IMG/VR virus record: IMGVR_UViG_3300025646_000076
Span: 1 to 47,064 of that record
DNA: 47,064 bases
Strand: one strand, 5' to 3'
From: a virus
Position numbers and translations under genes: made by a program. The notes under the pieces are model-generated. The model saw nothing but the letters and a program-made list of their open reading frames with translations, had not been told where the DNA came from and did not search any database. Every line of letters starts with the position of its first letter. Positions within the stretch are counted from its first letter, which is position 1. Of the stretch, positions 6,477 to 46,676 are shown piece after piece.

Positions 6477-7154
6477 ATGGGAAAGCGAGTACGCATAGAA
6501 AGTTTTAATCCACCGCCAATATTGGCTCAGACTCTTAATCAACAGTCATTGATAAACGCAATACGAGACAATACTCAAGTAATATCTACTGGTTCTGCAG
6601 GAACTGGTAAAACGTTTATAACCGCAGGATTAGCGGCAGACTGGTATCTTAGGAATAGTAGACGCAAAATAGTGATCACTAGACCGATGATACCCGTTGG
6701 AGAGGACATTGGATTTTTACCGGGAGATCTTTCAGAAAAGACAACCCCGTGGGCTATGCCTGTTCTAGACGTCATTGCACAAAGAATTGGCGTTAAAAAG
6801 TTAGAATGCGACTTAGGAAAAAGCATTGAAGTGGTACCTTTGCAACTGATGCGAGGTAGAACCTTTGATGATGCATGGATACTAGCAGACGAAGCTCAGA
6901 ATCTTTCTATTGAGCAAGCTAAAATGCTTGTTACTCGAGTTGGAGAGAACTCTAAACTACTTATAAATGGGGATATCAACCAAAAAGACATACCTGAAAA
7001 ATCAGGATTAGCTTGGTTAGTTGAAAACATATATAGGTACTATTTACCCATTCCCGTAATTGAGTTTACAATACAAGATTGCCAGAGAAGCGATACTTGT
7101 AAAATGTGGCTTGAAGTAATGGAAATGGAAGATACTCGCAAAAAGGCAAAATAA
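6477..7154 (+). CDS. phoH: PhoH-like P-loop ATPase
   Basis: A 225-residue PhoH-family ATPase. Walker A is GSAGTGKT at residues 39-46 and Walker B is WILADEAQN with Asp138-Glu139. The RPMIPVGEDIGFLPGDLSEK stretch, typical of the family, lies between them, and a GDINQ sensor motif follows. PhoH proteins are frequent auxiliary genes of marine phages. Cellular versions are linked to the phosphate regulon and to RNA metabolism, but the phage role is not settled. The length is that of the ATPase core alone, without extra RNA-binding domains. It sits between a small basic gene and a sulfotransferase-like gene. Confidence 0.9.
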   Translation: MGKRVRIESFNPPPILAQTLNQQSLINAIRDNTQVISTGSAGTGKTFITAGLAADWYLRNSRRKIVITRPMIPVGEDIGFLPGDLSEKTTPWAMPVLDVIAQRIGVKKLECDLGKSIEVVPLQLMRGRTFDDAWILADEAQNLSIEQAKMLVTRVGENSKLLINGDINQKDIPEKSGLAWLVENIYRYYLPIPVIEFTIQDCQRSDTCKMWLEVMEMEDTRKKAK

Positions 7155-7707: not shown

Positions 7708-8198
7708 ATAATGAAGCGTTTGTATATCGGTTAACAAATACTACTAATGGGCGATACTATATTGGCTACCATAAAGGCGATGAAGACGATGGCTATATTT
7801 GCTCTTCTCGAAATTATGAATTCTGGGAAGATTTGCATAGCGATATTTTTACAAGAGACTTATTAAGATATGGCTCAAAAGAAGAATGTAAATTAGAAGA
7901 ATCTATTTTATTAGCGGATTGTTTTTCTGACCCTAAATGTTATAACTTTTCAGATGGAAATGGTGGATTTTTACTTAAAAATAATTGGGTAGGCGTTCAA
8001 GTCCCCAGTAGGCTTTTAGTAGAAGCAGACGTAATCCCTGAAAAATATAAAACAAAAGAATTCATTTGGTATAAGAAAAATAAATATATAGAGTTAGGTT
8101 ATAGGGGCATTAAAAAAGACGTAGACGATGCTCAAACATTTATCGGTAGAATCAAACTTAATATAAGACAATTTATACGGAAAATAACATGTCAATAA
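7704..8198 (+). CDS. GIY-YIG nuclease, possible homing endonuclease
   Basis: A 164-residue protein with an N-terminal GIY-YIG domain. FVYRLTNTTNGRYYIGYHKG (residues 6-25) supplies the GIY- and YIG-type strands. The catalytic-type Arg is probably Arg36 (CSSRNYEF) and the metal-binding Glu is in KLEESILLAD (Glu65/66). A CYNFSDGNGG segment follows, seen in stand-alone phage GIY-YIG proteins. The C-terminal ~50 basic residues may bind DNA. It lies directly before the large terminase gene, which it overlaps by ten bases. That place is typical for free-standing homing endonucleases, but also for HNH/GIY-YIG proteins that help packaging. Confidence 0.75.
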   Translation: MNNEAFVYRLTNTTNGRYYIGYHKGDEDDGYICSSRNYEFWEDLHSDIFTRDLLRYGSKEECKLEESILLADCFSDPKCYNFSDGNGGFLLKNNWVGVQVPSRLLVEADVIPEKYKTKEFIWYKKNKYIELGYRGIKKDVDDAQTFIGRIKLNIRQFIRKITCQ

Positions 8199-9529
8199 CA
8201 TTACATGAGGGACAGTCGCAGATTATAAGAGATATGTTTGTGGACCAATCCGTTCGCTACGCGGCGGTATGCGCTTCTCGAGGTTTTGGCAAGTCTTACC
8301 TTGCGGCCTGTGCGGCGGTCTTGGCTGTACAAGAATTAGTACAATTACCCGCTGATGTTCCAAACAAAAATGTATGCTTAATTTGCCCAACTTATCAGCA
8401 GGCTGTTGATATCTATTATCCTTTGATTGCTTATCAATTTGGAATGGAAGACTTCTGCGACAAATCATCCCAACATAGCGGCACTTTCTGGTTTCCTAAT
8501 AATGTAGTACTTAAATTATGGTCATATGAAGCGTCCGAACGACTTCGAGGATCTGGCCAATATTTTGCAGTACTAGATGAGGTTACTACTTGGAGAGGAG
8601 CAGGTGGCTCTTTTAAAGAATCTTGGGAAAGTATTATACAGCCCTGTTTAACTACTCGTTGGTCTCCTGACAGAGCTAAAGAATTTGGAGCGCCCTCCCC
8701 GGGAAGGGCTCTTATTATTTCTACCCCTAAAGGTAGAGATTATTTTTATGATATGTTTAATTTTGAAGCAGTTGATAATAATTGGAAATCTTACCATTTT
8801 ACATATAAAGACTCTCCTTATTTAGACGAAGAAGAAATTGAGAAAACAAAACATACTATTGACTTTTTTAAATTTAAACGAGAGTACGAAGCATCTTTTG
8901 ATGAATCTGGTAACTCTGTATTTTATAATTTTAACAGAAAAGATCATGTAGATAAAACAATTATTGATTTTCAACCGGGAGAGACTGTTTACGCCTGTAT
9001 CGACTTTAACGTTTCAATTATGGCGTGTTCCTTATTTGCTCTTAGGGGAAATCAAATGCAGTTTATTGAAGATTTTATAGGACATCCCGATACAGAATCC
9101 CTAGCAAAAACGCTACAAAAGCGTTTTGTACAAAAGGGACATGACGTAAAATGTTTTCCAGACCCAAGCGGTCGAGCTAGAAAGTCTTCGGCATCTGTAG
9201 GACGTACAGACTTTTCTATTTTGCAATCATATAATCTTGAAACTATTGCAAGAAGTAAAGCGCCTGCATTAATTGACTCTGTAGCGGCAGTGAATAGACA
9301 ATTAAAAACCGCTAGTGGGCATGTCAATATGTTATTTCATCCCAGATGCAAGCACACAATTAAATCTATGGAACGAACTTCATGGAAAGAAAACAACCCA
9401 GATTCTGCTATGATTGATAAATCGGCGGGTGAAGAGCACCACTCCGATGGAGTAAGATACGCTACTGAGTATCTATTCCCAGTCACAAGCGGAACAAAGG
9501 TACGTTCCAAGCAATCACATAATTTTTAA
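8189..9529 (+). CDS. terL: Terminase large subunit
   Basis: A 446-residue packaging motor and nuclease. The ATPase has Walker A CASRGFGKSY (Lys35) and Walker B YFAVLDEVTTW (Asp130-Glu131), with the coupling motif ALIISTPKGRDYFYDMF after it. The C-terminal nuclease has the RNase-H-like strand YACIDFNVSIMA (Asp272) and a late acidic/His region EEHHSDGVRYATEYLF. Length is normal for the family. No small terminase is recognisable next to it; one of the small genes upstream could be it, or it lies outside. The start overlaps the nuclease gene upstream. Confidence 0.92.
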   Translation: MSITLHEGQSQIIRDMFVDQSVRYAAVCASRGFGKSYLAACAAVLAVQELVQLPADVPNKNVCLICPTYQQAVDIYYPLIAYQFGMEDFCDKSSQHSGTFWFPNNVVLKLWSYEASERLRGSGQYFAVLDEVTTWRGAGGSFKESWESIIQPCLTTRWSPDRAKEFGAPSPGRALIISTPKGRDYFYDMFNFEAVDNNWKSYHFTYKDSPYLDEEEIEKTKHTIDFFKFKREYEASFDESGNSVFYNFNRKDHVDKTIIDFQPGETVYACIDFNVSIMACSLFALRGNQMQFIEDFIGHPDTESLAKTLQKRFVQKGHDVKCFPDPSGRARKSSASVGRTDFSILQSYNLETIARSKAPALIDSVAAVNRQLKTASGHVNMLFHPRCKHTIKSMERTSWKENNPDSAMIDKSAGEEHHSDGVRYATEYLFPVTSGTKVRSKQSHNF

Positions 9530-9541: not shown

Positions 9542-11206
9542 ATGGCTAATACAGCTACGTCTGCGAATCGTTCTAAATCTGTAGGAGATCCGCATCCCAA
9601 ATACGAGTCGCTTAAGCCACTTTGGAGAACTGCAAGAGGAATTCTTAATGGCCAATCTCAAGTTAAAGAGTTAGACTCAATACTTGATAATTACGGCTTT
9701 AAAAATATTTTATTGCCCTTTTCTCCAAGCATGACTCCCGAGCAATATGCGTTTTATAGAGCAGAAGCAGAGCTTCCTGGGCTAACCGCACAATATATCA
9801 AAGTACTTATTGGAGGAATGCTCCGCAAGCAACCTGAAATTACACTACCAGAAAGCGCCCCTGAAGGCGCTCTAGATTGGCTTCGTAACTCATTTACCTC
9901 TTCAAATAATTCTATATTATCTTTTTTGGACGAAGCCTTGTTTGAGGAACTCCAAACTTCAAGAGCATGGGTAATAGTGGATTACCCTTCTGTACCTAAC
10001 TATGACGCATTAAGCTTAGAAGAGCGTAAAATGCTTGCGCCTTACCCAGTGCTTTTAAACGCGGAATCAGTAGTAAACTGGAGAACAGGGGCTCATCCTC
10101 GTACTGGAAAAAATTGCTTACTCGCATTAGTTGTAAGAAGTTATGAGACAGTATATAGAGACAATCCTCTGCATCCAGACTATGTAGAGTGCGCCTATGT
10201 TCATAGAATAAATGAACAGGGAATTTATGTTGTTGATAAGTATGAGCTTAGAGCAGAGCAATCTGCTAATGTGAACTTTATTAACGGTGTTGCACAACAA
10301 GACTATGAAGTATCCGGTGGAATGCACGGTGCAAAAACTTCTAAAAATAATATGTGGCAAAAAGTTGCAACTTACGATCAAATTATGGCAAACAACAAAT
10401 TGTTTGACTATATCCCAGCAGTCCCTTTAAATGGAAATATTGAAGGTGAAGAGCCTGTTTTAATGCCATTAATTGACAGAGAAGTAAGCCTCTACAACAA
10501 AGTGTCACGTCGTAATCATTTGTTATTAGGAGCGGCAACTTACACACCAGTTGTAATTTCAGATATGACAGACGATCAATTTGAAGATGTTGTTTCAGCA
10601 GGCTTAGGTTCTTGGATTAAAGTTCAGCAGGGCGATGATGTTAAGGCTCTAGAAACTCCCTCTCGTGCTTTACGAGATATGGAGTTGGTAATTCAAAACA
10701 CTGTTAATGAAATGGCTCGCCTTGGAATAAGGATGATGGCCCCTGAAAGCGGAAGTGGCAGAGATTCTGGAGTAGCTCTAGAAATCAGAAACGCCGGACA
10801 ATCTGCTTTACTAGCCTCAATTTCTACAAAAGTTTCACAACAAATGACTAAAATAATTTGTTGGATGTTAAACTGGAAGTATGGAACAGATTATAAAATG
10901 TCAGATATTACATTTAATTTAACACCTGATTTAAATCCAGCACCAATTGGCGCAGACTGGTTAAGGTTAGTTACAGAATGGTACACGGGTGGTCTTATTC
11001 CACGATCTGCATTTCTTGATATTGCTAAGGCAAACGATATAATTCATTCAGATTATGATGACATAAAAGGTCAAGAAGAAATAAATCAGGATGACATTAT
11101 CATGGGAGGACTTGATCCTCAACCTCTTGATGATTTAATCAATGCTCAAGCAAAAGAGCCCGAAGTATTAACGAATAATAAAGACGAAGGAAAAGACAAT
11201 GGTTGA
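9542..11206 (+). CDS. Portal protein (DUF4055 type)
   Basis: A 554-residue portal, the ring at the capsid vertex through which DNA passes. The N-terminal third has the pattern YESLKPLWRTARGILNGQSQ, then FSPSMTPEQYAFYRAEAELP and YIKVLIGGMLRKQPEITLP. This matches the DUF4055 portal-like family I know from marine siphophages. It follows terL by 12 bases with AGGAG upstream, and is followed by small genes and the MuF protein, the classic head order. The acidic C-terminus ends in an overlap with the next gene. Confidence 0.85.
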   Translation: MANTATSANRSKSVGDPHPKYESLKPLWRTARGILNGQSQVKELDSILDNYGFKNILLPFSPSMTPEQYAFYRAEAELPGLTAQYIKVLIGGMLRKQPEITLPESAPEGALDWLRNSFTSSNNSILSFLDEALFEELQTSRAWVIVDYPSVPNYDALSLEERKMLAPYPVLLNAESVVNWRTGAHPRTGKNCLLALVVRSYETVYRDNPLHPDYVECAYVHRINEQGIYVVDKYELRAEQSANVNFINGVAQQDYEVSGGMHGAKTSKNNMWQKVATYDQIMANNKLFDYIPAVPLNGNIEGEEPVLMPLIDREVSLYNKVSRRNHLLLGAATYTPVVISDMTDDQFEDVVSAGLGSWIKVQQGDDVKALETPSRALRDMELVIQNTVNEMARLGIRMMAPESGSGRDSGVALEIRNAGQSALLASISTKVSQQMTKIICWMLNWKYGTDYKMSDITFNLTPDLNPAPIGADWLRLVTEWYTGGLIPRSAFLDIAKANDIIHSDYDDIKGQEEINQDDIIMGGLDPQPLDDLINAQAKEPEVLTNNKDEGKDNG

Positions 11207-11442: not shown

Positions 11443-11685
11443 ATGAGTGACTCCTTTTTAGAAGACGAATTTTTAGAATTGGAAGAAGTATCCGAAAGTG
11501 AGTTTGAGGAAGTAGTTGAAACTTTTATAGAAATTGATCACTCTAAAGAAGAAGGTCTTGTGACTGTAGGCGCTATTACTTCTTGTGGATACACAGTTAC
11601 GGCTATTATAGACGAAAATCGTGTATTAATTAGTAACCGTACAACTGCAAAAGTAGTTAACAAGAGCGATATTGAAATCGTATAA
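11443..11685 (+). CDS. Small acidic protein of the head module
   Basis: An 80-residue protein with a very acidic N-terminal half (LEDEFLELEEVSESEFEE) and a small beta-rich C-terminal half. The frame opens at an upstream TTG, but the ATG at 443 bases past 11000 (11443) has GAGGTG upstream and is preferred. It directly precedes the MuF-polymerase gene, and a copy of the putative promoter motif lies inside its coding sequence at 11536. Function unknown. Confidence 0.6.
   Translation: MSDSFLEDEFLELEEVSESEFEEVVETFIEIDHSKEEGLVTVGAITSCGYTVTAIIDENRVLISNRTTAKVVNKSDIEIV
11536..11553 (+). promoter_or_regulatory. Putative phage RNA-polymerase promoter, copy 3 (intragenic)
   Basis: GATCACTCTAAAGAAGAA differs from the copy at 35871 by one base in 18. 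It lies within a coding sequence (encoding DHSKEE), about 150 bp before the ATG of the MuF-RNA polymerase fusion gene. Being coding, part of the match could be chance, but the near identity to an intergenic copy argues for function. Confidence 0.5.
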
Positions 11686-11700: not shown

Positions 11701-14700
11701 ATGAGCATTAATGAAGAGCTTTATGATCGTATTGTAGACCATGCGGCAATGGTTCGATTGTTTGAAGAAAATGCTCAAACCGATGTTAAAAGAATAATTC
11801 GAAGACACAGAGAAAGACTAACTTCTGCCCTTAAAAATGCAGGAATTATTTCTAGAACCAAAACAATCGATTCTGTAATTAAACCAGAAATTAGAAGATT
11901 TTCTAAAGAACTAGATGGTTTTTTAGTTAATAGTGTGAAAGACTACGGAATTACAGAACTCGATTTTAACACCAATAATCTAGCAAAGTCGATCGGCGCA
12001 TATGCAAATATAAGACGCCCGAAGGCAACTAAAGTCCTAGAAGAAATTGTTGGTGTTAACATCCGAGGAGAGGGAAACCTAAGCAGGCGTATCCAAGCTT
12101 TAGGCGCAGGTGAGTTAACTCGAATACAAACAAAAATAAACAACGGGTTAGCTAAAGGTTTTTCTAATGAGCAATTAAGAAATGAAATTGTTAGAACAAC
12201 CCGCTTAACAGAAGCGCAAGCTAGCGCTCTCGTCAGAACTGCAATCACCAGAACGCAATCTACCTCTCAACTAAATTCATTAAAAGAAAATAGAGAGCTT
12301 ATTAAAGGAGTGCGATTTACTGCAGTATTGGATAGTCGTACAAGTGCAATCTGCGCTCACCACGACGGCAAAGTGTATGATTTAGACGACACAAGATATA
12401 CTCCCCCTTTACATTGGAGGTGTCGCTCTACATTGGTGCCTGTCGTTAAATCTCATAGTGAGCTATTAGCTAGTACCTCTCCGGATGTAAAAAAGAAAGT
12501 ATTGGAAAAATTGTCAGATAGTCAAATTCTAGCGTTAAATAAAACGGTTCCTAGTCGAGAATCTTATGGAGAATGGTTAGCTCGCCAAACTCGAGAAGTA
12601 AAAATTCGACATTTTCAAGGAGATATCCAAAAAGTCGATCTTTTTGATAATGGTCAATTAACCTTAGATACCTTTGTTACAGCAAGTGGAAAGCCTCTCT
12701 CATTAACAGCGTTACGCCGTTTAGACAATAGAAATACAACTACTGCTCCAGTTAGACAAAAAGTTTTATCACCTACCGCAATTAATGCTTTAAACATTAA
12801 TGCGTCCCGTCCTTCTACACTTATTCGTAATAAAAGTGTCGAAGAGGAACTTCGTCTTTTTTATCGAGCAGAGGCCGCTAATATCAATTCTTTGCTATCA
12901 TTAACAGATTTCCGGGGAACTTCAATTCCCGGAAAAAGGACTAGTAGACGTAGAGCCAATAATCAATTTGATGAAAGAAATACGGGAATTGACCCCCTTA
13001 CGGGTGAAATGAAATCTACACTTATCTACGAACCGGATTTCAAAGTATTTCAAGAGAGATTAGATTTACTAAATAATTCAAAAATATTATCTAAAGAACA
13101 AAAAAACTTTATTGAAAATTTTGTAATTTCTTTAGAGAATGATGGTCTTTCTATTAATCAACAGTCTGCTGTTATAGAGAACTTACGCCTCATATTCGAA
13201 AGATATGAAAAGGATAAAGTGCCTTGGGAAAATTTTTCAGCAGTATTAAGAGCAGAAATGAAAAATTCTGTTGTTAACACTTCTAGAATACTGGATAGGA
13301 GATCTAGAGCCAGATCCCAACTCTATAAGTTTGGAGAAGCAGGAACATCTGCTCAAATTCAAATATTTGGTAAGTGGACCGAATTTAATGATATCTCTAA
13401 AAGAACTCTTAAAAATCAAAGATTAGTTAGAGATTGGAGCGTTAACGAAGGCCTCCCAATTGCGAGAGCTTTATATTACTCTGGGAGATCTCCTTTAAGA
13501 TCTTACTTTCCAAAGCCTCCCTCTAATTTGCCTAGTTTTAAAAAAGCGAAAAAGGCTCTTATTAAGGAAATAGAAAAACTTCCTTTTGGAAAAGCATTTA
13601 TAAGAAAGTATAATGGAGAGCCTTCTGATTCTCTTATTACTAAATTTCTAAGAGAAGGTAGTGAAAGAAAAAGAAGATTTTTAGATTTAGAATGGTTTTA
13701 TATTAAAAAGAAAGAAGACTTTATTCAAAAATCTATTACTCCAGAATTTGCAAAGCAAAGGATAAAACTACTATCTGAAATAATAGAAGATATTGCAACA
13801 GGAGAATCTACAGATTATGATTCACTTGCAATTAGGATTGGTAAAAAAATATATGAAGCTGAAAAAGCAGATGTAGATATATTTTTTAAAGCTCCTACAA
13901 TACAAGATTATCATAAAATAGGATCAAATATATTACAAGGTTTAAAGGATCAAGGCAAAATAAAGGTAGGTCTTAGAGGATTAACTCGCAGAGGGGTTAT
14001 TGATCTAGATTCAGGAAGACCCGGCTTAGGTACCTTTAGAGACACAATATCTCGAGAAGTACAAATTGTAGATCCTAAAATGCTAGAGCTTCAAAGAGCT
14101 AACAGAGAAATAGTTTATTCCCGAAGAATGGGTATTGTAGATGAAAGAGACCGTTTATATGTGAAAGCCGGATCTAAATATTTCTATGATGCTCGTGGTA
14201 ATAAAACAAATATTAGTGTAATAACTAGAAAAGCCTCTGGTAATTACGAAAAAAATTTAATAGATAGCGACTTTGCTAACATGATAAATCATGCAATGGA
14301 TTTTGAATGGGAAGTAGATAAAGACTTTGCATCCTTTTTTGATGATCTTGCTCATTTTAGGGATCCTAGAGGTAACGTTCAAAAGTATGATGAGCTAAAT
14401 AGTTTTAGAAAAATTATCATACAGCGTGGAGAGCAAGGCGCGGGTATGTTACAAGCAATCAGGTGGCATCGGGTAAACAATACTCGGTGGAGAAATTGGG
14501 CACAAATTGACAGCAGAGGGCGGCTTTATACTCAAGGGTATTTACACCCTGCAGGTGGTGAATTTGTTCGACCATTTTTAAACACTGCTATTGCTAAAAA
14601 CATTAACGAAGAAATACTAGATGAACTTAGAATACAACTAGGTACTCTAGTAGGAGAGGCTTTTAGCGTATTAACTAATCAAGGCAGATTAAATTCTTTT

Positions 14701-16149
14701 AGACAAAATGAAAAAGCATTTAGAGAACTTGGTGAAATTATGCTTTCACAGACTCAAAGAGATCGTAGAATACGAGAATTTCTTGAGCATCCGCTAGTAC
14801 AATCAATAGAACCCGAAGAGGTCCCTAAACTAGCTAGATTTGCTTTGGAATATACACGTATCTATAATCACGTAGATGGCGATTTTTCTAATGTTAAAAA
14901 ACTTAGAACTTATAAAACTCAACTAGCAAATGAAAACGATGCTTCAGCGTCTGGAGCACAGTTAATAGCTTTGTCCACGCGAGACCGTGCTCTTGCAGAA
15001 GCATCTAATGTTGTGGCCACAAACCGTAAAAACAGACTTTATGACTTAGTAGCAGAAAGAACTATTTCTGATCCTAGATTTAGAAAGATAAATCCAATAG
15101 GAAATAATATTGATTTTGGTGACTTAGCTAAAGGTGCAAAAGGCCAATCAATGGTTGCTTTTTATGGAGCGGGAAAGGCTACTCAAGCAGGTGCAATTGA
15201 GTCTAAACTCGCCAAGGTTTTATCAAAGAAAGGTTATTTAGTAATAACCAAAGATGAATTAAAACAATTCAATAAAGAAATAGATCTTAATATCGAAAAA
15301 GCAAAAGCCGATGGTGCTCTATCTGTGGTAGAGGATTTAAAGGTTTTTAAAAAAGAAGTAAACTATTCAATTAACAATAGCTCTCCTGTAGGGAACCAGC
15401 TTTTAGCGGCGGCTAAAGACTTACACCCGGATTCAGAAGAGTTTGTAAGAAAGCTGACCAACGCTCGTGGTGGGATTATTGGCCCTGAACAGTTTAAACA
15501 AACTGCAGAAATAATGTCTGGCCACTTAAGTGACATTGCTCCGGTTACGGAACGATTTGTTGCTTATTGGAAAAAAGTTGCGACTACTTACATTACTGAA
15601 TCTCAAGAGGTAGATATCCCTTGGTATACAGTTGATGGTAAAGTATTATTTCAGCGATATCGTCCTACAGTTCAAGACAGGATTGAATTTATAGACCCTG
15701 TCACTGGTAGAAAGGTATCAAATATCTACGAAGACTCAATTACTGACTCTAGATTTATTGGAAATCAGTCAATTATCGGCGCTCGTAGTGGTTTGGGAGT
15801 AAATGGCAATCATATGAATGATGCTAGTATTGTTCGGAGATTTCATCTCTGGGGTAGAAAGAACAATATTAATACGGCTACAATTCATGACGGATTTTTT
15901 ACAAATCTAGCCGATTCCTTAGCGGCAAAGCAAAGATTGAGAGAAATCTATGCGGATGCAGTTGAGGCAGATACACTCTTAAACACCCTCAAAGAAATGA
16001 GGAAAAGAGGACTTTCGGAAGAATCGTATTTAGAACTAATTCAATTAGCGATTGACGAAGGTTTATTAAACCCCAAAGATGGCATAACTGCTAAAGAAAT
16101 ACTTGCCCCTATCCCAGAAGGATGGGACTTCTATGGCATTGGGCCTTAA
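11701..16149 (+). CDS. MuF head protein fused to T7/N4-type RNA polymerase
   Basis: A 1482-residue fusion. The N-terminal ~250 residues are a MuF/SPP1 gp7-type domain: RTAITRTQSTSQLNSL, AVLDSRTSAICAHHDGKVY (Asp211-Arg213) and PPLHWRCRSTLVPV (Cys241). The C-terminal part has single-subunit RNA polymerase motifs in order: DSRGRLY at 937-943 (T7 DWRGRVY), motif A NDASASGAQ with Asp1080 (T7 DGSCSGIQ, Asp537), motif B AKGQSMVAFYG with Lys1147 and Tyr1155 (T7 Lys631, Tyr639, same spacing), His1371 (T7 His784) and motif C TIHDGFF with Asp1397 (T7 Asp812). Residues ~260-900 would hold a linker and N-terminal domain. The position between portal and scaffold is the normal MuF position. I infer a capsid-packaged polymerase ejected with the genome, as for N4. 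The T7 Arg627 position is Ala1143, with Lys1144 beside it. Confidence 0.85.
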   Translation: MSINEELYDRIVDHAAMVRLFEENAQTDVKRIIRRHRERLTSALKNAGIISRTKTIDSVIKPEIRRFSKELDGFLVNSVKDYGITELDFNTNNLAKSIGAYANIRRPKATKVLEEIVGVNIRGEGNLSRRIQALGAGELTRIQTKINNGLAKGFSNEQLRNEIVRTTRLTEAQASALVRTAITRTQSTSQLNSLKENRELIKGVRFTAVLDSRTSAICAHHDGKVYDLDDTRYTPPLHWRCRSTLVPVVKSHSELLASTSPDVKKKVLEKLSDSQILALNKTVPSRESYGEWLARQTREVKIRHFQGDIQKVDLFDNGQLTLDTFVTASGKPLSLTALRRLDNRNTTTAPVRQKVLSPTAINALNINASRPSTLIRNKSVEEELRLFYRAEAANINSLLSLTDFRGTSIPGKRTSRRRANNQFDERNTGIDPLTGEMKSTLIYEPDFKVFQERLDLLNNSKILSKEQKNFIENFVISLENDGLSINQQSAVIENLRLIFERYEKDKVPWENFSAVLRAEMKNSVVNTSRILDRRSRARSQLYKFGEAGTSAQIQIFGKWTEFNDISKRTLKNQRLVRDWSVNEGLPIARALYYSGRSPLRSYFPKPPSNLPSFKKAKKALIKEIEKLPFGKAFIRKYNGEPSDSLITKFLREGSERKRRFLDLEWFYIKKKEDFIQKSITPEFAKQRIKLLSEIIEDIATGESTDYDSLAIRIGKKIYEAEKADVDIFFKAPTIQDYHKIGSNILQGLKDQGKIKVGLRGLTRRGVIDLDSGRPGLGTFRDTISREVQIVDPKMLELQRANREIVYSRRMGIVDERDRLYVKAGSKYFYDARGNKTNISVITRKASGNYEKNLIDSDFANMINHAMDFEWEVDKDFASFFDDLAHFRDPRGNVQKYDELNSFRKIIIQRGEQGAGMLQAIRWHRVNNTRWRNWAQIDSRGRLYTQGYLHPAGGEFVRPFLNTAIAKNINEEILDELRIQLGTLVGEAFSVLTNQGRLNSFRQNEKAFRELGEIMLSQTQRDRRIREFLEHPLVQSIEPEEVPKLARFALEYTRIYNHVDGDFSNVKKLRTYKTQLANENDASASGAQLIALSTRDRALAEASNVVATNRKNRLYDLVAERTISDPRFRKINPIGNNIDFGDLAKGAKGQSMVAFYGAGKATQAGAIESKLAKVLSKKGYLVITKDELKQFNKEIDLNIEKAKADGALSVVEDLKVFKKEVNYSINNSSPVGNQLLAAAKDLHPDSEEFVRKLTNARGGIIGPEQFKQTAEIMSGHLSDIAPVTERFVAYWKKVATTYITESQEVDIPWYTVDGKVLFQRYRPTVQDRIEFIDPVTGRKVSNIYEDSITDSRFIGNQSIIGARSGLGVNGNHMNDASIVRRFHLWGRKNNINTATIHDGFFTNLADSLAAKQRLREIYADAVEADTLLNTLKEMRKRGLSEESYLELIQLAIDEGLLNPKDGITAKEILAPIPEGWDFYGIGP

Positions 16150-16182: not shown

Positions 16183-16200
16183 AAAAACTTTATAGTCTGT
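16183..16200 (+). promoter_or_regulatory. Weak promoter-like element before the scaffold gene
   Basis: AAAAACTTTATAGTCTGT keeps the TATAG core and part of the recurrent 18-bp motif (7 of its 13 invariant positions). It lies 16 bp before the scaffold ATG and resembles the element before the capsid gene (both contain ACTTTATA and then TCTG). Offered as a candidate only. Confidence 0.3.
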
Positions 16201-16216
16201 GACTAGGAGAAACAAA

Positions 16217-16882
16217 ATGGAAAATGATAAAAATACTGATGTAGAACTTGAAAAGAAAGAACAAAAGGCGGGAGCTACCCCTTCTCAGGAAGAACTTTCT
16301 AAAATTGTAGAAAGCCGAGTAGCCGAAGAGCTTGCTAGTATCAAAGAGAAACTAAACAGTGCTTATTCTGCTCGTGATGAAGCTGTTAGAAAGGCAGTTG
16401 CTTACGAAGAAGAAAAGAAAGCATTACAAATCTCTAGATTAGAAGAAGAAGGCAAGCACAAGGAAGCCGCTGACATTAAGCTCGCAGAGTTAACTGCTCG
16501 ACTCTCAGAAAGAGATAAGCAGATTACTGAACTTACTCGCGATAGTGTAGTAAGAGAAGCTCTCCGTGGCTTAGACTTCCGTAACGATACTGCGGCAGAT
16601 TTCGCGTATCGGGATGTTGTATCTCAACTGACTCAAAATGAGAATGGTCAGTGGGTACACCGCACTGGCGCTTCTATCAAGGACTTCATTGACACTTTCC
16701 GTAAAGACGAAGATAAAGAGTTTTTGTTTAGACCGAAACAGTCCTCTGGAGTTGGGCAACAAACAAATCAGGCTCCCACCGGAGGTTTTGACTCTAACAA
16801 ACCACTATCTGAAATGAGCGTTGAGGAATTGATGGCGGCGGCAGCTGCTGGACATATCGGAAACGATCATAAGTGGATTTAA
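16217..16882 (+). CDS. Capsid scaffolding protein
   Basis: A 221-residue protein directly before the major capsid gene. Residues ~20-115 are highly charged heptad-rich sequence (VAEELASIKEKLNSAYSARD, KALQISRLEEEGKHKEAADI) expected to form a long coiled coil. The C-terminal half has a conserved-looking AADFAYRDVV and KDFIDTFRKD region and a flexible Gln/Gly/Pro linker. The frame extends to a GTG at 16199, but the ATG at 16217 has AGGAG at the right distance and is chosen. Size, composition and position all fit the scaffold of HK97-fold capsids. No protease is recognisable next to it. Confidence 0.8.
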   Translation: MENDKNTDVELEKKEQKAGATPSQEELSKIVESRVAEELASIKEKLNSAYSARDEAVRKAVAYEEEKKALQISRLEEEGKHKEAADIKLAELTARLSERDKQITELTRDSVVREALRGLDFRNDTAADFAYRDVVSQLTQNENGQWVHRTGASIKDFIDTFRKDEDKEFLFRPKQSSGVGQQTNQAPTGGFDSNKPLSEMSVEELMAAAAAGHIGNDHKWI

Positions 16883-16911: not shown

Positions 16912-18099
16912 ATGGCAATCTCTTCAAGTGCATTTGGCACTCTTAACAAAGCAATCTCAGCTTATACTGATGAAATGTACACTCGTGCTAAAAAGCTCGT
17001 AGGTACTCAACTTGTAGGTACTGAAGCTCAAATTAACGCTAACGGCGAAGACTTTATTGGTCAGGTTCGTTTTTACAAGCCACTTGGCAATTATGCAGTT
17101 GGTGCAACTGGCGGTTCTGCAGAAGACGTAACGGGTTCTACTAATGCAGTTGTTAACGTAGCTTCTCAAAACGAAGACTATGGAAAGACCACTAACATTA
17201 GCACAGAAGTACAGACTTACATCAAGACTGTCCGTACCCATGGCGCTAATGAGTACATGGTACAAAGCGTAATTTCTGGTCAAGACGGACTTTCTAAAAT
17301 CGCTCGTGATTTTGCTGAAACTCGTGCAGAAGACGAAGATCAAGCGCTTCGTGCTTGCTTGACTGGCGTTATGAACGCAGAACTTAAAACAGCTAACGAT
17401 CTTGCACCTACTGCTTACAGTGATGCATGGGTAGGTAACTCAGTTGATGCAGACCCTTCAAAAGCTTTCGGTTATGTAGCCGCATCTTCTGACACAGTTG
17501 GTACTGGTTCAGGTCTTGAGCCTCTTGTAGACCTTACTCAGTCTTCTCCCGGTCGCCGCGTTGAGCACATCATTCGTGCTATGGGCGCATGGTCTGACTA
17601 CGCACCTGATTTTGTATACATGGTTGTATCACCCGATACCTACCTCGATATCAAAGTTGCTAACCTCGTAGATGACGAGCGTGTAACAGATGGCAATATC
17701 TCTTTTGAAACTCTGCTTGGCGGTGTAATTCGTGTAATTGTTTCTCGTAACTTTGGCCAAGGCCTTGGTACTGTAACTTACGCGGCTCTGTCTGGTTCAA
17801 CTGAAATTAGCACTGCTAAAGTATCTTACATGATGCTTCCTTCTTCAATGTTTATGTCTATGGTTAGTGTACCTAACCCTGTAGCGGTTGACCGCAACGA
17901 AGGCGTAGGCATGGGATCAGGCCGTACTACTGCTTGGTACCGTTGGGGCTATGTAATGCATCCTCGCGGCTACAGCTTTACTGGCACTCAAACTGCATTT
18001 GCAACTAATGCGGCACTTGCAGGCTCTGCGGGAACCCCTGCATGGGATCGTAAAGCAGACATTCTTAACCTCGGCATTCTGCCTATTTTCCACGCTTAA
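16912..18099 (+). CDS. Major capsid protein
   Basis: A 395-residue protein following the scaffold gene, without a cleaved delta-domain-like extension. It has an N-terminal helix region (GTLNKAISAYTDEMYTRAKK), long beta-strand segments and the C-terminal TTAWYRWGYVMHPRGYSF stretch, which resembles the end of HK97-fold capsid proteins of marine phages. Codon choice is visibly biased to GCT, CGT, CTT, GGT and AAC. It differs from the AT-rich codons of neighbouring genes such as the tape measure, as expected for the most abundant virion protein. Strong ribosome site GGAG. Confidence 0.88.
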   Translation: MAISSSAFGTLNKAISAYTDEMYTRAKKLVGTQLVGTEAQINANGEDFIGQVRFYKPLGNYAVGATGGSAEDVTGSTNAVVNVASQNEDYGKTTNISTEVQTYIKTVRTHGANEYMVQSVISGQDGLSKIARDFAETRAEDEDQALRACLTGVMNAELKTANDLAPTAYSDAWVGNSVDADPSKAFGYVAASSDTVGTGSGLEPLVDLTQSSPGRRVEHIIRAMGAWSDYAPDFVYMVVSPDTYLDIKVANLVDDERVTDGNISFETLLGGVIRVIVSRNFGQGLGTVTYAALSGSTEISTAKVSYMMLPSSMFMSMVSVPNPVAVDRNEGVGMGSGRTTAWYRWGYVMHPRGYSFTGTQTAFATNAALAGSAGTPAWDRKADILNLGILPIFHA

Positions 18100-27705: not shown

Positions 27706-28260
27706 ATGAAAAACACTCCTGCATCAATTGTATCAGGGTTAGTTAATGACTTAGCAGAACCCTATTTAATATTAGATCTGGAGTTTAGTTCAGGTACGGT
27801 TAGGCTGACAAATCTTCCTTATAACGTTAGTGTTGGTGGTAACACTTACGTATCAGACGGGGGGTTAACTCAGTTTTCACCCCCTCAACTTACTTCAAGT
27901 ATAGATCGAGAAACATACCGGATTAAACTTACAGATTACCAAAATTTTTATAAAGATGAATTTGAAACAAACGCAGTTGGCACTCCTGTTACTGTAAAAC
28001 TAGGTATTGTAGGAAATACAACAGATTTTGACATTCTTTATAAAGGTAGAATAGATGCTACTTTTATTGAAACAAATCCAGCAGAAGGCTCAAAAAATGC
28101 AATTCTAGAGTGTTCCTCTCCTTTTGGAGCACTAGATAGAACTGCAGACAGACGAACAGACAAAAACACTCAGCGTTTGATAGACAGTACTGATTCTTGT
28201 TTTGACAGAATTTACAATAATGAGAATACAATTCAATTAAGGTGGGGTAAAAAAGCATGA
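27706..28260 (+). CDS. Tail-tip hub-like protein (DUF2163/GTA gp13-like)
   Basis: A 184-residue protein with EPYLILDLEFSSGTVRLTNL, YRIKLTDYQNFYKDEF and AILECSSPFGALDRTADRRT. The LECSSPFGALDR stretch resembles the DUF2163-type tail proteins of phages and gene transfer agents, which form part of the hub below the tape measure. It is one base after the previous gene and overlaps the start of the giant tip gene by four bases. The NlpC/P60 peptidase gene often found next is missing. Confidence 0.65.
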   Translation: MKNTPASIVSGLVNDLAEPYLILDLEFSSGTVRLTNLPYNVSVGGNTYVSDGGLTQFSPPQLTSSIDRETYRIKLTDYQNFYKDEFETNAVGTPVTVKLGIVGNTTDFDILYKGRIDATFIETNPAEGSKNAILECSSPFGALDRTADRRTDKNTQRLIDSTDSCFDRIYNNENTIQLRWGKKA

Positions 28261-31200
28261 TTTTATCGATAATAATTGCAGTTGTCTCTACCATTTATTC
28301 TTATACACAATCAAGGAAAGCTAAAAAGAGAGCAGAACGAGAAGCTGAAAAAAGAAAAGGATTTGAATTAAATACAAAAGGAGAGGCGCGAGCACTTCCG
28401 ATTGTATATGGAAGATCTAAAGTAGGTGCTACGCTAGCAGATGTTACTGTTAGAGGTAGTTATACCCATACGAGTAGCACAGGGTCAGACGGTACAGCTT
28501 GGGTGTATGGCCTGTCTCAATCGAAAAGTCCTAAAAAGAATAAAAACGAATTTCTTGTAGCAAATTATGCTATATGTCAGGGTGGAATTAATTCAGTTAA
28601 CTTTTTAGAAGTAGATGATGTTGATTACAATAATTCAGAATTTCAAAAAGATGGAAAAGGCGGTCATAGAATTGTAACACACACAGAAGGTGGAGTTGCA
28701 GACCCTATGACCTCAACTAACGGTCTACGTTCTGACTCTAAATTTACAGATTGCGCTTTTGCGGGAGCTGTATTTTATTTAAACAGGGATGATCCCCAAT
28801 ATTATCAAATCCCTGATCTTACGTTTTATGTAGAAGGATTAAAAGTAGCTTCTGTTACAGAAAGCAATGGGGTTTACAGTTATAATCGAAGTGGAACAAG
28901 ACTATACTCTAACAACCCTGCATTAGTTCTTTTAGACTACCTAACTGCTCCCTATGGCGCAAACTTATCTATAAATGATGTAGACTTAGAATCTTTTTAT
29001 AATGCAGCATTAATTTGCGATACACCTGTAAATCCTGCATTAGGTCTAGGTCCTATTAAAAGACAAGGTAAAATTTGGGAAAATAGATTAGGTTACACCG
29101 CCTTTACTAACGATGGTGAAGATTATGTTGTTATCAGCGATGATATTGCAACAGCACACACTGGAGACAGTATTGGTTTTGCTACAAGTGAAACATACGG
29201 CTATTATACCTTCAATGCATCTGACGTTTATTACGATGTAAATAGTAATGAATATAGAATAGACACTGCTGATATTGTGCCTGTAGGAAGTTCTAGTATT
29301 ACCATTAATACACAGCTATTTTCTGGCCAAATTAGTTCTTTTTGGGTTAACGCAGAAACAGTTGCAGACTCTTTACCCTTGTATGAGTGTAACACTACGT
29401 TAGACCCTTCTGTTCCTATTAGAGATAATATAGATGACATTTTGTTCTCTATGGGAAATGCAGATTTAGTTTATTCAGAAGGTAAATACAAGCTTAACCT
29501 TTCTTATTTTGGTACTCAAACCGAATTAAGAAATGACGCAACTAATACTTTAATTATTACAGATGACATTCTTAAAGTCTCTGAAATAAAAATTACTTAT
29601 CCTAGTATTCAAACACGATTAAACCAGTGTATAGTTAGATACAGTAATGAGCAAGAAGACTTTAAAAGTGCTACAGCAACTTGGCCACCTACTGGTTCTG
29701 CAGTACATAATACATATTTAGCAGAAGATCAAGGAATTGTTTTAAATACTTCTCTTTCTGCAGAATCTATTACAGACCCCTATCATGCTACTGCAAGGGC
29801 TGAACAAACAGTAAGAGAATCTAGACGTGCAGTTATTTATGAATTCGAGATATTCGCAGAGGGCTATAAATTAGAACCCGGAGACCATATTCGCTTTAAT
29901 TCTGTACTTAATGATTTAACTTCTATAAATGATATTGCGCTTGTCAGATCTGTTTCATTAACAGAAAATATGACTGTAAAGGTTGAAGCCGTTAAAGTAA
30001 ATGCTACAGATTTAGCGTGGAATATTGCAGACGAAATACTAAGTGACTATCCCGGACATGAAGATTTTTCAGTAAGTCCGGTTACATTAACAAATAGTGC
30101 AATTGCAGAAGCGGACTTATCTGACGCTTCAGTTTATGGATATTATGTTAATCCTGAAGAGTACTCTATATTCTTAAGATGGCCAGAGGCAGATAACTCT
30201 TCCTTATTTGATCATTACGAAGTAGAAGCTCAAATTGGAAATACTTCCGATGATTTGTGGTTTGGAATCGGCACTACGCGGAATGAAAACTTTACCTATA
30301 TTCCGGGAAACCCTGCGGATTCTATATACTTTCGAGTTAGAGTAACAAACCAAAATGGAAGAAAATCGTCATGGTCTAATTTTGTAGGACCTGTTAGTAT
30401 TTTAATAGAAGCCGCCGCAGGCGTTACGGGTCAGTACGATACTTCTGCAATTATTTACCAACAACAGGCAAATGGCGCTTATACCGCTACAGATAGCAAC
30501 ACTGTTTTTGAAGTAAGAAAAAATTCTGTAGTACTCGAAAGACAAGATTACGATCCAGTAGGTACTCTAGCAGATAATAAATGGTGGGTTGTTTCTGTTA
30601 ATAATAGCGGTACTTTTAACATTACTGAAACAGCCTTTAATGCAGGAGATAATTTTCTTGCGTTAGATACTAATGCTTTTAGTGTAGACGGTCGTATTCA
30701 AACTACTGTAGAAGTCAAATTACCTAGACTAAATGCAACTTCTTATGACTTTTATCTTCCTGTTTCTGGTGCAAAATATGGAACTAAGGGGGATATAGGT
30801 GAAAAAGGGGACACTGGAGAAAAAGGCCTTAAAGGACAGGGCGGTGACAAAGGTGTCAAAGGTGTTCAAGGGCAACAAGGTCAAAAAGGCGAACTTGGAG
30901 AAAAAGGTACTAAAGGTACAACTGGCCAAAAAGGTACAACTGGTGACAAAGGTACCCAAGGCGATAAAGGTCTTAAAGGCAGCCTAGGCGAAAAAGGTGA
31001 CGCAGGCCAGAAAGGCGATACTGGTGACAAAGGTACTACCGGTGACAAAGGCGTTAAAGGCATCCAAGGTGTTAAAGGCGACGCAGGTCAAAAGGGAGCT
31101 ACTGGCGATAAAGGTGTAACCGGAGATAAAGGCGACGGCGGTGACAAGGGTATTAAAGGAGCCCAAGGTGTTAAAGGCACTACAGGCGACCAAGGTCAGA

Positions 31201-34200
31201 AGGGCAGTGCTGGTACTAAAGGTGCGCAGGGCGACAAAGGCTTAAAAGGACTTGCTGGTACCAAAGGCGACCAAGGTGATAAGGGTTCCACTGGCGATAA
31301 AGGATCTACTGGTGACAAGGGTGTTAAAGGCATCCAAGGTGTTAAAGGGGATCAAGGTCAAAAAGGATCCACTGGAGACAAAGGATCCACCGGTGACAAA
31401 GGTGTCCAAGGTGTCCAAGGCGTTAAAGGTACTACAGGTCAAAAAGGTGCTACAGGTGACAAGGGTGCTACCGGCGATAAGGGTACTAAAGGTATCCAAG
31501 GCGTTAAAGGAGCTCAAGGTCAAAAAGGCAGTACTGGCGATAAGGGCCAAACCGGCGATAAGGGTACTAAAGGTATTCAAGGCACTAAAGGCGATCAAGG
31601 CGAAAAAGGTACATTAGGCCAGAAGGGCCAAACAGGTGACAAAGGTGTCAAAGGTATTCAAGGCACTAAAGGCGACCAAGGCGAAAAAGGTACATTAGGC
31701 CAAAAAGGCCAAACCGGTGATAAAGGTGTCAAAGGTATTCAGGGTACCAAGGGTGACCAAGGTCAGAAAGGTACTACTGGACAAAAAGGCCAAACTGGTG
31801 ACAAAGGTGTCAAAGGTATTCAAGGCACTAAAGGCGACCAAGGCGAAAAAGGTACATTAGGCCAAAAAGGTCAAACCGGTGATAAGGGTATTAAGGGTAT
31901 TCAAGGCACTAAAGGCGATCAAGGCGAAAAAGGTACATTAGGTCAAAAAGGTGATCAAGGTCAAAAAGGTGTTACTGGTGATAAGGGCACTAAAGGTGCT
32001 TTAGGTCAGAAAGGTACTCAAGGCCAAAAAGGTCAAACTGGTGACAAAGGTACTAAAGGTATTCAAGGCACTAAAGGCGATCAAGGCGAAAAAGGTACAT
32101 TAGGTCAAAAAGGTGATCAAGGCCAGAAAGGTGTTACTGGTGATAAGGGCACTAAAGGTGCTTTAGGTCAAAAAGGTACTCAAGGTCAAAAAGGTCAAAC
32201 TGGTGACAAAGGTACTAAAGGTATTCAAGGCACTAAAGGTGACCAAGGCGAAAAAGGTACATTAGGCCAGAAAGGTGATCAAGGCCAAAAAGGTCAAACG
32301 GGTGACAAAGGTACTAAAGGTGCTTTAGGTCAAAAAGGTACTCAAGGTCAAAAAGGCCAAACGGGTGATAAGGGTACTAAAGGTATTCAGGGTACTAAAG
32401 GCGATCAAGGTCAAAAGGGTACTACAGGTCAAAAGGGTGACCAAGGCCAGAAAGGTGTTCAAGGTGATAAAGGTACTAAAGGTGCTTTAGGCCAGAAAGG
32501 TACTCAAGGTCAAAAGGGTCAAACCGGTGATAAGGGTACTAAGGGTATTCAAGGCATTAAGGGAGCTCAAGGTCAAAAGGGTACTACTGGACAAAAAGGC
32601 GATCAAGGTCAAAAAGGTGTCCAAGGTGATAAAGGTACTAAAGGTGCTTTAGGCCAGAAAGGTACTCAAGGTCAAAAGGGTCAAACCGGTGATAAGGGTA
32701 CTAAGGGTATTCAAGGCATTAAGGGAGCTCAAGGTCAAAAGGGTACTACTGGACAAAAAGGCGATCAAGGTCAAAAAGGTGTCCAAGGTGATAAAGGTAC
32801 TAAAGGTGCTTTAGGCCAGAAAGGTACTCAAGGTCAAAAGGGTCAAACCGGTGATAAGGGTACTAAGGGTATTCAAGGCATTAAGGGAGCTCAAGGTCAA
32901 AAGGGTACTACAGGTCAAAAAGGTCAAACTGGTGACAAAGGTATCAAAGGGGTACTTGGTCAAAAAGGCGACCAAGGGACTAAAGGTTCTCAGGGACAAA
33001 AAGGTACTACGGGTACTAAAGGTGACCAAGGCCAGAAAGGTACTCAAGGCTTAAAAGGTGTTCAAGGTGCTCAAGGTCAAAAGGGAATTATTGGCGATAA
33101 GGGAGATCCCGGATTAAAGGGCGGTCAAGGTATACAAGGCTCCCCCGGAAATGACGGACAAACAAACTTTCCTTATTATACAAACGCCCCTATTGACTAC
33201 AGTGCATCTAATCTTGTGCCACAAGGTAATCCCGGTACTACAAATGAGTTCGCTACAAATGGCGGTACTTATTTTTGGTGGCCGAATGCAACTAACGTTC
33301 CCGGCGGGGTAACTGCCATTAGATGGCAAATATATGCTATTGAGGCTAGTGCTTCTAATATTACGTCTTCCTCTTTTAGTAATCCATTTACTGTAGAAGG
33401 TGCTCAAGGCCCTACTGGTGAAAAAGGTACCAAGGGTGTTCAAGGCGTTAAAGGGGTTCAAGGCCAGCAAGGCAATCCGGGGCAAAAAGGCGATCAAGGT
33501 GACAAAGGCCAAACTGGTGCCAAAGGTACCAAGGGTGCCCAAGGCGATAAAGGTACTACTGGACAAAAAGGTGACCAAGGCCAGAAAGGTCAAACTGGAG
33601 ACAAAGGTACTAAAGGTGCTTTAGGTCAGAAAGGTGATCAAGGCCAGAAAGGTGACCAAGGTCAAAAAGGTGTTACTGGAGCTAAGGGTACTAAAGGCGC
33701 TCAGGGCAATAAAGGTGACACTGGACAGAAAGGTGATCAAGGTCAAAAGGGCGTTACTGGCGATAAGGGTACTAAAGGTGCTTTAGGTCAGAAAGGTGAC
33801 CAAGGCCAGAAAGGTGACCAAGGTCAAAAAGGTGTAACCGGGGCTAAAGGTACTAAAGGTGCCCAAGGCGATAAGGGTGACACTGGACAGAAAGGTGATC
33901 AAGGTCAAAAAGGCGTTACTGGCGATAAGGGTACTAAAGGTACTTTAGGTCAGAAAGGTGACCAAGGCCAAAAGGGTGACCAAGGTCAAAAAGGTGTAAC
34001 CGGGGCTAAAGGTACTAAAGGTGCCCAAGGCGATAAGGGTAACACTGGACAAAAAGGTGATCAAGGCCAGAAAGGTGTCCAAGGTGATAAAGGTACCAAG
34101 GGAACTTTAGGCCAAAAGGGTGACCAAGGCCAGAAAGGCGACCAAGGCCAAAAAGGCGTTACTGGAGCCAAAGGCACTAAAGGTGCCCAAGGTGATAAAG

Positions 34201-35831: not shown

Positions 35832-35839
35832 TGATATAT

Positions 35840-35863
35840 AAGGGGTTTTAATGGCCCCTTTTC
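35840..35863 (+). terminator. Terminator after the collagen-like tip gene
   Basis: AAGGGG (35840-35845) pairs with CCCCTT (35855-35860) around TTTTAATGG, followed by TTC. It lies just after the stop of the giant tip gene and is followed within 10 bases by the promoter motif at 35871, marking a transcription-unit boundary. Confidence 0.65.
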
Positions 35864-35870
35864 ATTAATC

Positions 35871-35888
35871 GATCACTCTATAGAAGAA
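35871..35888 (+). promoter_or_regulatory. Putative phage RNA-polymerase promoter, copy 4
   Basis: GATCACTCTATAGAAGAA is the best-placed copy of the recurrent motif: intergenic, right after a terminator and 20 bp before the ATG at 35909. The core CTATAGAAG is strikingly like SP6/T7 promoters (CACTATAGAAG in SP6). It would drive the whole fibre operon through the collagen-modifying enzyme to the terminator at 46657. Confidence 0.7.
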
Positions 35889-35908
35889 TAATTGGCTAAG
35901 GAGATAGT

Positions 35909-36235
35909 ATGGCTTCTTATAAACTTGAGCTTAATACAAGCGCTCCTTCCTATGAATTAGAATTATCAAGAGTAGGAGCACAAGGTGTAAAAGGGGAACC
36001 CGGCTCATCATTGACTACTACGTGGACTCGTTTAGTTACTGATTGGGTTTCCCAACCTACTCTTGTTGGTTCAACAACAGAGGGTAGAGTATTTCAATAC
36101 ACTTACTCTAATACTACGTTGTATCGATTAGTACCGAATACCAGCTCATTAGAGTTAGATTCTTTTTATACTAATTTTGATAATATTAATTTAACTGGTC
36201 TTGTTATTTCTAGAGGAATGACAATTAATCTATAG
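35909..36235 (+). CDS. Small tail protein with short collagen-like stub
   Basis: A 108-residue protein. The first ~25 residues (MASYKLELNTSAPSYELELS) are a short beta-rich head. Then comes RVGAQGVKGEPGSS, a three-triplet collagen-like stub, followed by a ~70-residue beta-rich tail. A closely similar head plus RVGAQGTQGEG stub is found in the tail protein at 43319, so this looks like a common N-terminal attachment module. First gene after the promoter at 35871, with AAGGAG upstream. Confidence 0.6.
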   Translation: MASYKLELNTSAPSYELELSRVGAQGVKGEPGSSLTTTWTRLVTDWVSQPTLVGSTTEGRVFQYTYSNTTLYRLVPNTSSLELDSFYTNFDNINLTGLVISRGMTINL

Positions 36236-36243
36236 GAGACAAC

Positions 36244-37809: not shown

Positions 37810-37823
37810 GAGGAATTTAACTC

Positions 37824-39575: not shown

Positions 39576-39623
39576 TAACAATTGGGGCTCTGAAAAGGGC
39601 CCTATACTAGGAGACATTTTATA

Positions 39624-42173: not shown

Positions 42174-42826
42174 TGTTAAATACCTTCTTTAACTATAATT
42201 GGGATTATTGGCTAATAGCAGGAAAGGTTACTTTTGATGGTCCAAATAGACTAATAATAGTCAATGAAGGTGTTACTGAGCTAGACATTAGCAGAGATGT
42301 TTATTCTAGTTGGAAAAATTGGCTTTTAGAAGGTTTTGGATCTACTTTTCTACCTGCAATACGTTCTGTTGGGGGAGACCCGATTGATGTGGAAACAGGT
42401 CAATATGCCGGAGACCTTTACTTTCTAATTAATAATTGGAAGCTTATTATTGATTTAGAAAAAGTAAGAGTCACCGGAGTTCTTTACTCTGATAACTTTA
42501 ATACAGCTTATTATAATGCACCTAATTCGCCAGTATACCCTGCCAGCGTTTCTAATATTGTATCTAAGCAAGTTAATAAGGAACAATCCCTTACTGCACA
42601 AAATATAGCAGATTTAGTTGCGGCTGTATGGAAAGCAAGTATGGCAGAATATATTGCAAATGGTACTACAGGTAGTGCTTTAAACAACGCAAGTACAGCT
42701 AGTACACTACCCAACGTAAACGAAATAGCGACAGCAGTAGATACTGAGCTTGCTGAAAAACTTACAACAATTAATGATGGTATTAAAGATGCTTCTATAT
42801 TGGTGCCTCACACTAAAGACATCTAA
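42173..42826 (+). CDS. Tail appendage protein
   Basis: A 217-residue protein. VTELDISRDVYSSWKNWLLE, then AIRSVGGDPIDVETGQYAGD and LYFLINNWKLIIDLEK form a pattern I know from marine phage tail proteins encoded next to fibres. The C-terminal ~70 residues are helical and Ala/Thr-rich (ADLVAAVWKASMAEY, NVNEIATAVDTELAEKL), probably a trimeric stalk. The start overlaps the preceding stop. Confidence 0.6.
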   Translation: MLNTFFNYNWDYWLIAGKVTFDGPNRLIIVNEGVTELDISRDVYSSWKNWLLEGFGSTFLPAIRSVGGDPIDVETGQYAGDLYFLINNWKLIIDLEKVRVTGVLYSDNFNTAYYNAPNSPVYPASVSNIVSKQVNKEQSLTAQNIADLVAAVWKASMAEYIANGTTGSALNNASTASTLPNVNEIATAVDTELAEKLTTINDGIKDASILVPHTKDI

Positions 42827-42844
42827 TTAAACTAGGAGCTTGTT

Positions 42845-44755: not shown

Positions 44756-44768
44756 TTAGGAAAGTTAA

Positions 44769-46652: not shown

Positions 46653-46656
46653 ATTA

Positions 46657-46676
46657 CCCCCGAAAGGGGGTTTTTT
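46657..46676 (+). terminator. Strong Rho-independent terminator
   Basis: CCCCC-GAAA-GGGGG followed by TTTTTT: a 5-bp GC stem with a GNRA tetraloop and a perfect T-tract, right after the stop of the collagen-modifying enzyme. It ends the fibre operon. Confidence 0.9.

Follow-up and report, generated by a model that had tools for sequence, protein, structure and literature searches.

In the IMG/VR virus record IMGVR_UViG_3300025646_000076, we analysed positions 1–47,064, a stretch of 47,064 nucleotides hereafter called the window. A single open reading frame (ORF) at positions 11701–16149 encodes one protein of 1482 amino acids (aa), in which a MuF minor-head protein is fused to a single-subunit RNA polymerase (RNAP). 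This fusion had been noticed in an earlier note made from the sequence alone, and its uninterrupted frame of 1482 codons, read again from the sequence, was borne out. The gene (MuF-RNAP) and its parts are as follows:

11701–16149, + strand: MuF-RNAP fusion gene (ORF, 1482 aa, profile matches, invariant residues)
11701–12768, + strand: MuF minor-head region, residues 1–356, with the Pfam MuF core at 141–245 (Pfam, phrog_241)
12769–13377, + strand: conserved helical linker, residues 357–559 (AlphaFold2 models, conserved columns)
13378–16146, + strand: single-subunit RNA polymerase domain, residues 560–1482 (VIA Z, PF00940, invariant catalytic residues)

The Pfam MuF profile matched residues 141–245 (E 1.8e-14), and the PHROG head morphogenesis family (phrog_241) covered residues 1–356 (E 1.9e-51). 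The earlier assignment of a MuF domain to about residues 120–250 was correct as to its identity, but the MuF-like region is longer, at about residues 1–356. Further downstream, the Pfam RNA_pol profile PF00940 matched residues 1065–1436 (E 3.1e-7), and a PHROG RNA polymerase match extended over residues 935–1172 (E 4.6e-24). All the motifs that the earlier note had listed were located at the residues given there, namely DSRTSAIC (211–218) and WRCRSTL (239–245) in the MuF part, and DSRGRLY (D937), NDASASGAQ (D1080), K1147/Y1155, H1371 and IHD (D1397) in the RNAP part. A phmmer search of PDB sequences detected T7 RNAP (E 5e-4), and the alignment paired D937 with D421, D1080 with D537, H1371 with H784 and D1397 with D812 of T7 RNAP, in agreement with the equivalences proposed earlier. 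The Pfam scan of the 1482-aa protein detected no peptidase domain.

The fold of the RNAP part was analysed on an AlphaFold2 model of residues 300–1482, with 45 family members in the alignment (mean predicted local distance difference test (pLDDT) 80.7; predicted template modelling score 0.72). A comparison with T7 RNAP and the N4 virion RNAP (vRNAP) had been proposed as a test of the fold, and its outcome was positive. The best Foldseek match in PDB was T7 RNAP (E 7e-20), together with human and yeast mitochondrial RNAPs, and VIA-align gave a Z of 30.9 to T7 RNAP (root-mean-square deviation 3.7, 518 residues), about 20–28 to mitochondrial RNAP, 17.5 to N4 mini-vRNAP (2po4) and 15.2 to N4 RNAPII. 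As judged from this model, the fusion RNAP is structurally nearer to T7 and mitochondrial RNAPs than to N4 vRNAP. The palm and fingers fold of T7 RNAP, including the catalytic Asp, Asp, Lys, Tyr and His, is present; the polymerase had been expected over residues 500–1482, but the structural match starts near residue 560. The sequence shares only about 15–18% identity with T7 RNAP, and identities of 12–18% between RNAP families are insufficient for a tree. The top match among viral models was a 1463-aa protein, A0A7S5FRK7 (48% identity), which by its length and identity is the homologue from the DSS3 phages described below, followed by T7-like RNAPs and then by N4-like vRNAPs. The model of residues 1–565 was also confident (pLDDT 84.9); its comparison with PDB gave no convincing match.

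Distribution and conservation of the fusion

The survey of viral metagenomes suggested in the earlier note revealed a large conserved family of MuF-RNAP fusions in IMG/VR, where a clade A profile matched 379 relatives and a query from clade B (32% identical) matched 147. Among 50,697 phage records, at least 80% of the query was covered in four, namely, three that belong to the roseophages DSS3_VP1, which grows on Ruegeria pomeroyi DSS-3, and DSS3_PM1 (both Naomviridae, Noahvirus), and EBPR siphovirus 1, where the match is in pieces. The DSS3 phages carry the same fusion at full length (46% identity), together with the free RNAP, the P_early element and the portal–fusion–scaffold–capsid order described below; they differ in that GenBank labels gene 28 of DSS3_VP1 'minor head protein-like protein' and leaves the RNAP part without annotation. 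An assembly artefact was rejected, because many independent contigs and the three GenBank records of DSS3 phage isolates share the fusion in one frame. In the open-access literature, a scope that falls short of proof, no MuF fusion to a single-subunit RNAP was found described; the earlier statement to this effect held up there, though the genes were already in GenBank. Peru-2 (PMC13320782) was considered as a parallel and rejected: it encodes a T7-like RNAP as its second one, yet has an Ig-like decoration, and no polymerase, as minor capsid protein.

The nearest named relatives without the fusion are the Pelagibacter phages Kolga and Aegir, whose MuF protein is related over 348 residues and whose free RNAP is 28% identical. 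The MuF protein of Kolga has 633 aa, and Kolga also encodes a thymidylate synthase. These relatives could represent the state before fusion. Longer fusions of 1767–1984 aa, with in-frame extra segments that have no Pfam name, occur at loci L068, L071 and L072 and at the clade B loci L303–L313. Genome collections gave matches in one gammaproteobacterial metagenome-assembled genome bin only, and allowed no host assignment.

D937, R941, Y943, D1080, K1147, Y1155, H1371 and D1397 were invariant in 51 aligned sequences (identity down to 37%), and the clade B protein of 32% identity also retains all catalytic residues. Between the window and a 90% relative, the ratio of nonsynonymous to synonymous substitution rates (dN/dS) was 0.097 for the MuF part, 0.080 for the linker and 0.064 for the RNAP part, and all three parts are under purifying selection. 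In two members, group I introns (Rfam RF00028, E 8e-21 and 7e-26) split the MuF-RNAP gene at motif B: G027 (L329, 580–846) and G041 (L330, 1178–1407, minus strand). In EBPR siphovirus 1 (gp47–gp49), an HNH/NUMOD1 gene lies at about the same place. Mobile introns tend to occupy constrained catalytic sites. A polymerase fold retained for a structural or packaging role, without catalysis, would agree with the low identity to T7 RNAP; nevertheless, the invariance of all catalytic motifs down to 32–37% identity, the dN/dS of the RNAP part and the position of the introns and the HNH gene at motif B make this explanation extremely improbable. The fusion RNAP is a putative enzyme of DNA-dependent RNA synthesis.

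A second polymerase and two classes of repeated elements

Near-complete members of the family also encode a second, T7-like RNAP, free of MuF, which in DSS3_VP1 is 732 aa long. This second RNAP (PF00940) was detected in six of the 20 records of the first set (DSS3_VP1, G001–G003, G005 and G008), the other 14 being mostly short fragments of the structural block, in 22 of 24 large contigs carrying P_early and in all 14 large clade B records. The window record stops before the free RNAP gene. However, G031 (IMG/VR sample 3300007541) corresponds to window positions 32789–47064 over 14,276 bp at 99.97% identity and continues the window phage; beyond the overlap lie early genes, the gene of a free RNAP of 755 aa and those of DNA polymerase A, a dCTP-deaminase homologue and ribonucleotide reductase. 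The free RNAP frames of G044, G056 and G027 (926–1020 aa) are broken between PF00940 matches, possibly by inteins or insertions.

Near the end of the window, a repeated element, P_early, follows a terminator-like hairpin:

46657–46676, + strand: intrinsic-terminator-like hairpin CCCCC-GAAA-GGGGG-T6, closing the structural block just ahead of P_early (read from sequence)
46683–46712, + strand: P_early copy 1 (AAAAAGTGAGAAAAACTATGTATCTATAAT), candidate MuF-RNAP promoter (perfect match to the pattern derived from relatives)
47004–47033, + strand: P_early copy 2 (match to the pattern derived from relatives)

The P_early pattern, with 25 fixed bases, was built from the sequences ahead of the free RNAP blocks of DSS3_VP1 and of the uncultured relatives G001 and G002, and its clade A form is AAAAAGTGAGAAAA-N5-G[CT]ATCTATAATGA. 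In DSS3_VP1 (MN602266), copies are located at 35795 and 36242. Using a slightly relaxed pattern with zero mismatches, we detected two perfect matches in the window, at 46683 and 47004, with 0 expected from 100 shuffles. The pattern matched 98 viral stretches of IMG/VR, of which 97 carry homologues of this phage group, while the remaining one belongs to G027, a contig with both RNAPs. In the stretches that include the free RNAP gene, all 80 copies of P_early were located upstream of it and in the same orientation, at a distance of 1.2–8.1 kb. The element stands ahead of the early block in the window as well as in relatives. Among the 20 MuF-RNAP records, P_early was detected in exactly the six with a free RNAP gene (reversed-pattern control, 0). 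Significant similarity to the DSS3 form was restricted to DSS3 phages among all phage records. P_early was absent from Kolga, the close non-fusion relative with a free RNAP.

The clade B member G043 gave no match to the clade A pattern. For clade B, exact repeats upstream of the free RNAP were searched blindly, without use of the clade A motif, and the repeats recovered were built on GTATCTTATATGA; in 15 regions, 33 copies were in sense orientation and one in antisense orientation. The extended element, GCG[GC]AAAA-spacer-GGTATCTTATATGA, is in register with the clade A form GAGAAAA-N5-G[CT]ATCTATAATGA at 16 of 21 positions, indicating that the element diverges along with the phages while its bipartite form is kept. 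One clade B element contains an inverted repeat, AATAGGA-ATAA-TCCTATT, which is not common to most other clade B copies. An N4-type hairpin promoter was rejected, as P_early is without a stable hairpin.

T7-like phages transcribe their early genes with host RNAP, and the clade A cores of P_early contain TATAAT. P_early might then be a host sigma70 promoter, read by host RNAP for the early genes and the free RNAP gene in the manner of T7, with MuF-RNAP playing its role elsewhere, for example in making short transcripts or primers inside the cell. However, no −35 match above background was detected at spacers of 15–19 bp, and the clade B cores have TTATAT in place of TATAAT, with hardly any variation among the 33 copies. 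The loss of TATAAT in clade B and the lack of a −35 element at the usual spacing argue against sigma70, and this origin was rejected. The P_early logo of 153 instances, with about 57 bits conserved over 39 positions in phages of many samples, also stands against a host promoter, as does the deoxyuridine (dU) contained in the DNA of DSS3_VP1, a phage with a characterised dCTP deaminase and dTMP phosphatase (PMC12697855). Taken together, we consider the host promoter unlikely, and P_early would be used as a promoter by MuF-RNAP.

A second class of elements, P_nv, was detected by motif search in the window:

475–490, + strand: P_nv candidate
696–711, + strand: P_nv candidate
11534–11549, + strand: P_nv candidate, T7-like (TTGATCACTCTAAAGA), 151 bp ahead of the fusion gene
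35869–35884, + strand: P_nv candidate

The T7-like motif TTGATCACWCTAWAGR occurs at these four positions, all in the forward direction, and five matches were obtained in the window at up to two mismatches, versus 0.22 expected. Additional copies are present in G031. The candidates precede structural genes as well as the fusion gene. DSS3_VP1 carries an SP6-like motif 16 times, always on the coding strand and nearly absent ahead of the free RNAP block; this motif was not found in the window. The motif of the window phage is another one, with a stronger resemblance to T7.

Genes surrounding the fusion gene

The fusion gene is located between the portal gene and the scaffold and major capsid genes, which is the usual place of MuF genes, and the order in DSS3_VP1 is identical:

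8189–9529, + strand: terminase large subunit (phrog_2, E 2.5e-35)
9542–11206, + strand: portal protein, immediate upstream neighbour of the fusion gene (phrog_145, E 7e-53)
16199–16882, + strand: scaffolding protein (phrog_206, E 2.8e-11)
16912–18099, + strand: major head protein (phrog_247, E 2.8e-22)

Major tail protein, tail terminator, tape measure and distal tail protein genes were found, with no sheath gene among the proteins searched, and this gene set points to a long tail. The structural half also holds a PhoH-like ATPase (6477–7154) and a holin of the gene transfer agent type (1061–1486). A 2524-aa collagen-like Gly-X-Y tail fibre (28257–35831) is encoded in the same gene block as a 627-aa protein (44769–46652) that combines a glycosyltransferase domain of the PLOD type (procollagen-lysine; E 1.8e-49) with a GT25 domain (E 5e-30), and the window phage may glycosylate its own collagen-like fibre. 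Pfam detected no hydroxylase domain in the neighbours of the glycosyltransferase.

A proposed two-polymerase circuit and its known counterparts

We propose, with a probability of about 0.8, that MuF-RNAP is a virion polymerase held by its MuF part, which transcribes the early genes, including that of the free RNAP, from P_early, after which the late genes, including MuF-RNAP, are transcribed. The MuF part would be incorporated at or near the portal during assembly, as suggested by the location of its gene between the portal and scaffold/major capsid genes, and would bring the polymerase into the head. At infection, MuF-RNAP would pass into the cell together with the DNA and start transcription at the two P_early copies (46683 and 47004), just past the structural-block terminator. 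The transcript would carry the early genes and the gene of the second, free T7-like RNAP, which in turn would transcribe middle and late genes from T7/SP6-like promoters. One such promoter would be that immediately preceding the MuF-RNAP gene, and new virions would thereby be loaded with MuF-RNAP. The free RNAP, P_early ahead of the early block and the T7-like candidates support the earlier suggestion of MuF as a capsid address for an early-gene polymerase. The presence of MuF-RNAP in the virion, its injection and the assignment of each polymerase to its elements are our inference.

Several points weigh against this proposal. All of its parts co-diverge within one phage group, so P_early could serve another factor; in principle, a phage-encoded regulator or the free RNAP itself, in an autocatalytic loop, could use it. 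In the distant member EBPR siphovirus 1, P_early was not found in the stretches searched, and the partial record holds no free RNAP. P_nv is a candidate only, because its motif came partly from the sequence in which it was counted. Furthermore, a protein of 168 kDa would need unfolding to pass through a long tail tube.

Head proteins are commonly processed, and the MuF region of the fusion also matches PHROG 595, 'head maturation protease', a label that may stem from multi-domain proteins in that family. The fusion might thus be cut during or after synthesis, with the MuF part going to the head and the RNAP part acting as an ordinary late, non-virion polymerase. The non-virion role is, however, already filled by the free RNAP, full-length members keep the fusion in one frame, introns aside, and with a polymerase that acts only late, the position of P_early upstream of the free RNAP would have no explanation. 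We therefore regard cleavage as quite improbable, less probable still than the host promoter, and retain the virion polymerase.

N4-like phages, jumbo phages and P23-45 are known to have virion RNA polymerases, each with its own route into the cell. N4 vRNAP is likewise a single-subunit RNAP of the T7 superfamily encoded in the structural block of a phage with a second RNAP, and its mini-vRNAP is matched by the fusion RNAP with the Z of 17.5 given above. In contrast, N4 vRNAP is about 3,500 aa long (PMC12633501), has a metallopeptidase domain (PMC5512222) and no MuF, belongs to a short-tailed phage and uses hairpin promoters, whereas the fusion is 1482 aa without a Pfam peptidase and P_early is without a hairpin; according to PMC5512222, N4-like RNAPs are confined to N4-like phages or prophages. 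The long-tailed Thermus phage P23-45 (PMC10770324) also has a virion RNAP fused to a structural protein, plus a non-virion RNAP, but its enzyme is a two-barrel RNAP akin to cellular enzymes, carried by the tape measure, instead of a T7-type RNAP carried by MuF. MuF carries enzymatic domains in the MuF-effector fusions among polyvalent proteins as well, but the partners there are RNases, RelA/SpoT, PRTase, zeta-toxin-like kinase and others (PMC5512222). In AR9/phiKZ, a packaged RNAP transcribes the early genes and those of a non-virion RNAP, which transcribes the late genes and those of the packaged RNAP (PMC9209446). The circuit proposed here would, by analogy, be that of AR9 and, in outline, that of N4 and P23-45. 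AR9 DNA contains uracil; unlike the phages described here, AR9 and phiKZ are jumbo phages with multisubunit RNAPs.

Deaminase homologues are encoded in G001, G002 and G031, and dU-containing DNA may extend across the family and may be the reason for keeping a polymerase of its own. We lean towards the view that the long-tailed phages of two large clades, mostly uncultured and with Naomviridae among them, transcribe independently of the host by means of a MuF-carried T7-type virion polymerase and co-diverged, non-hairpin bipartite promoters, probably on dU-containing DNA. If this is true, a T7-type polymerase carried by MuF would represent a new delivery route, in which a common head protein has been turned into a polymerase carrier, and it would account for the start of transcription in a phage with dU-containing DNA such as DSS3_VP1. 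With an isolated phage, a predicted promoter and an enzyme domain of 920 residues, each step is open to direct testing.

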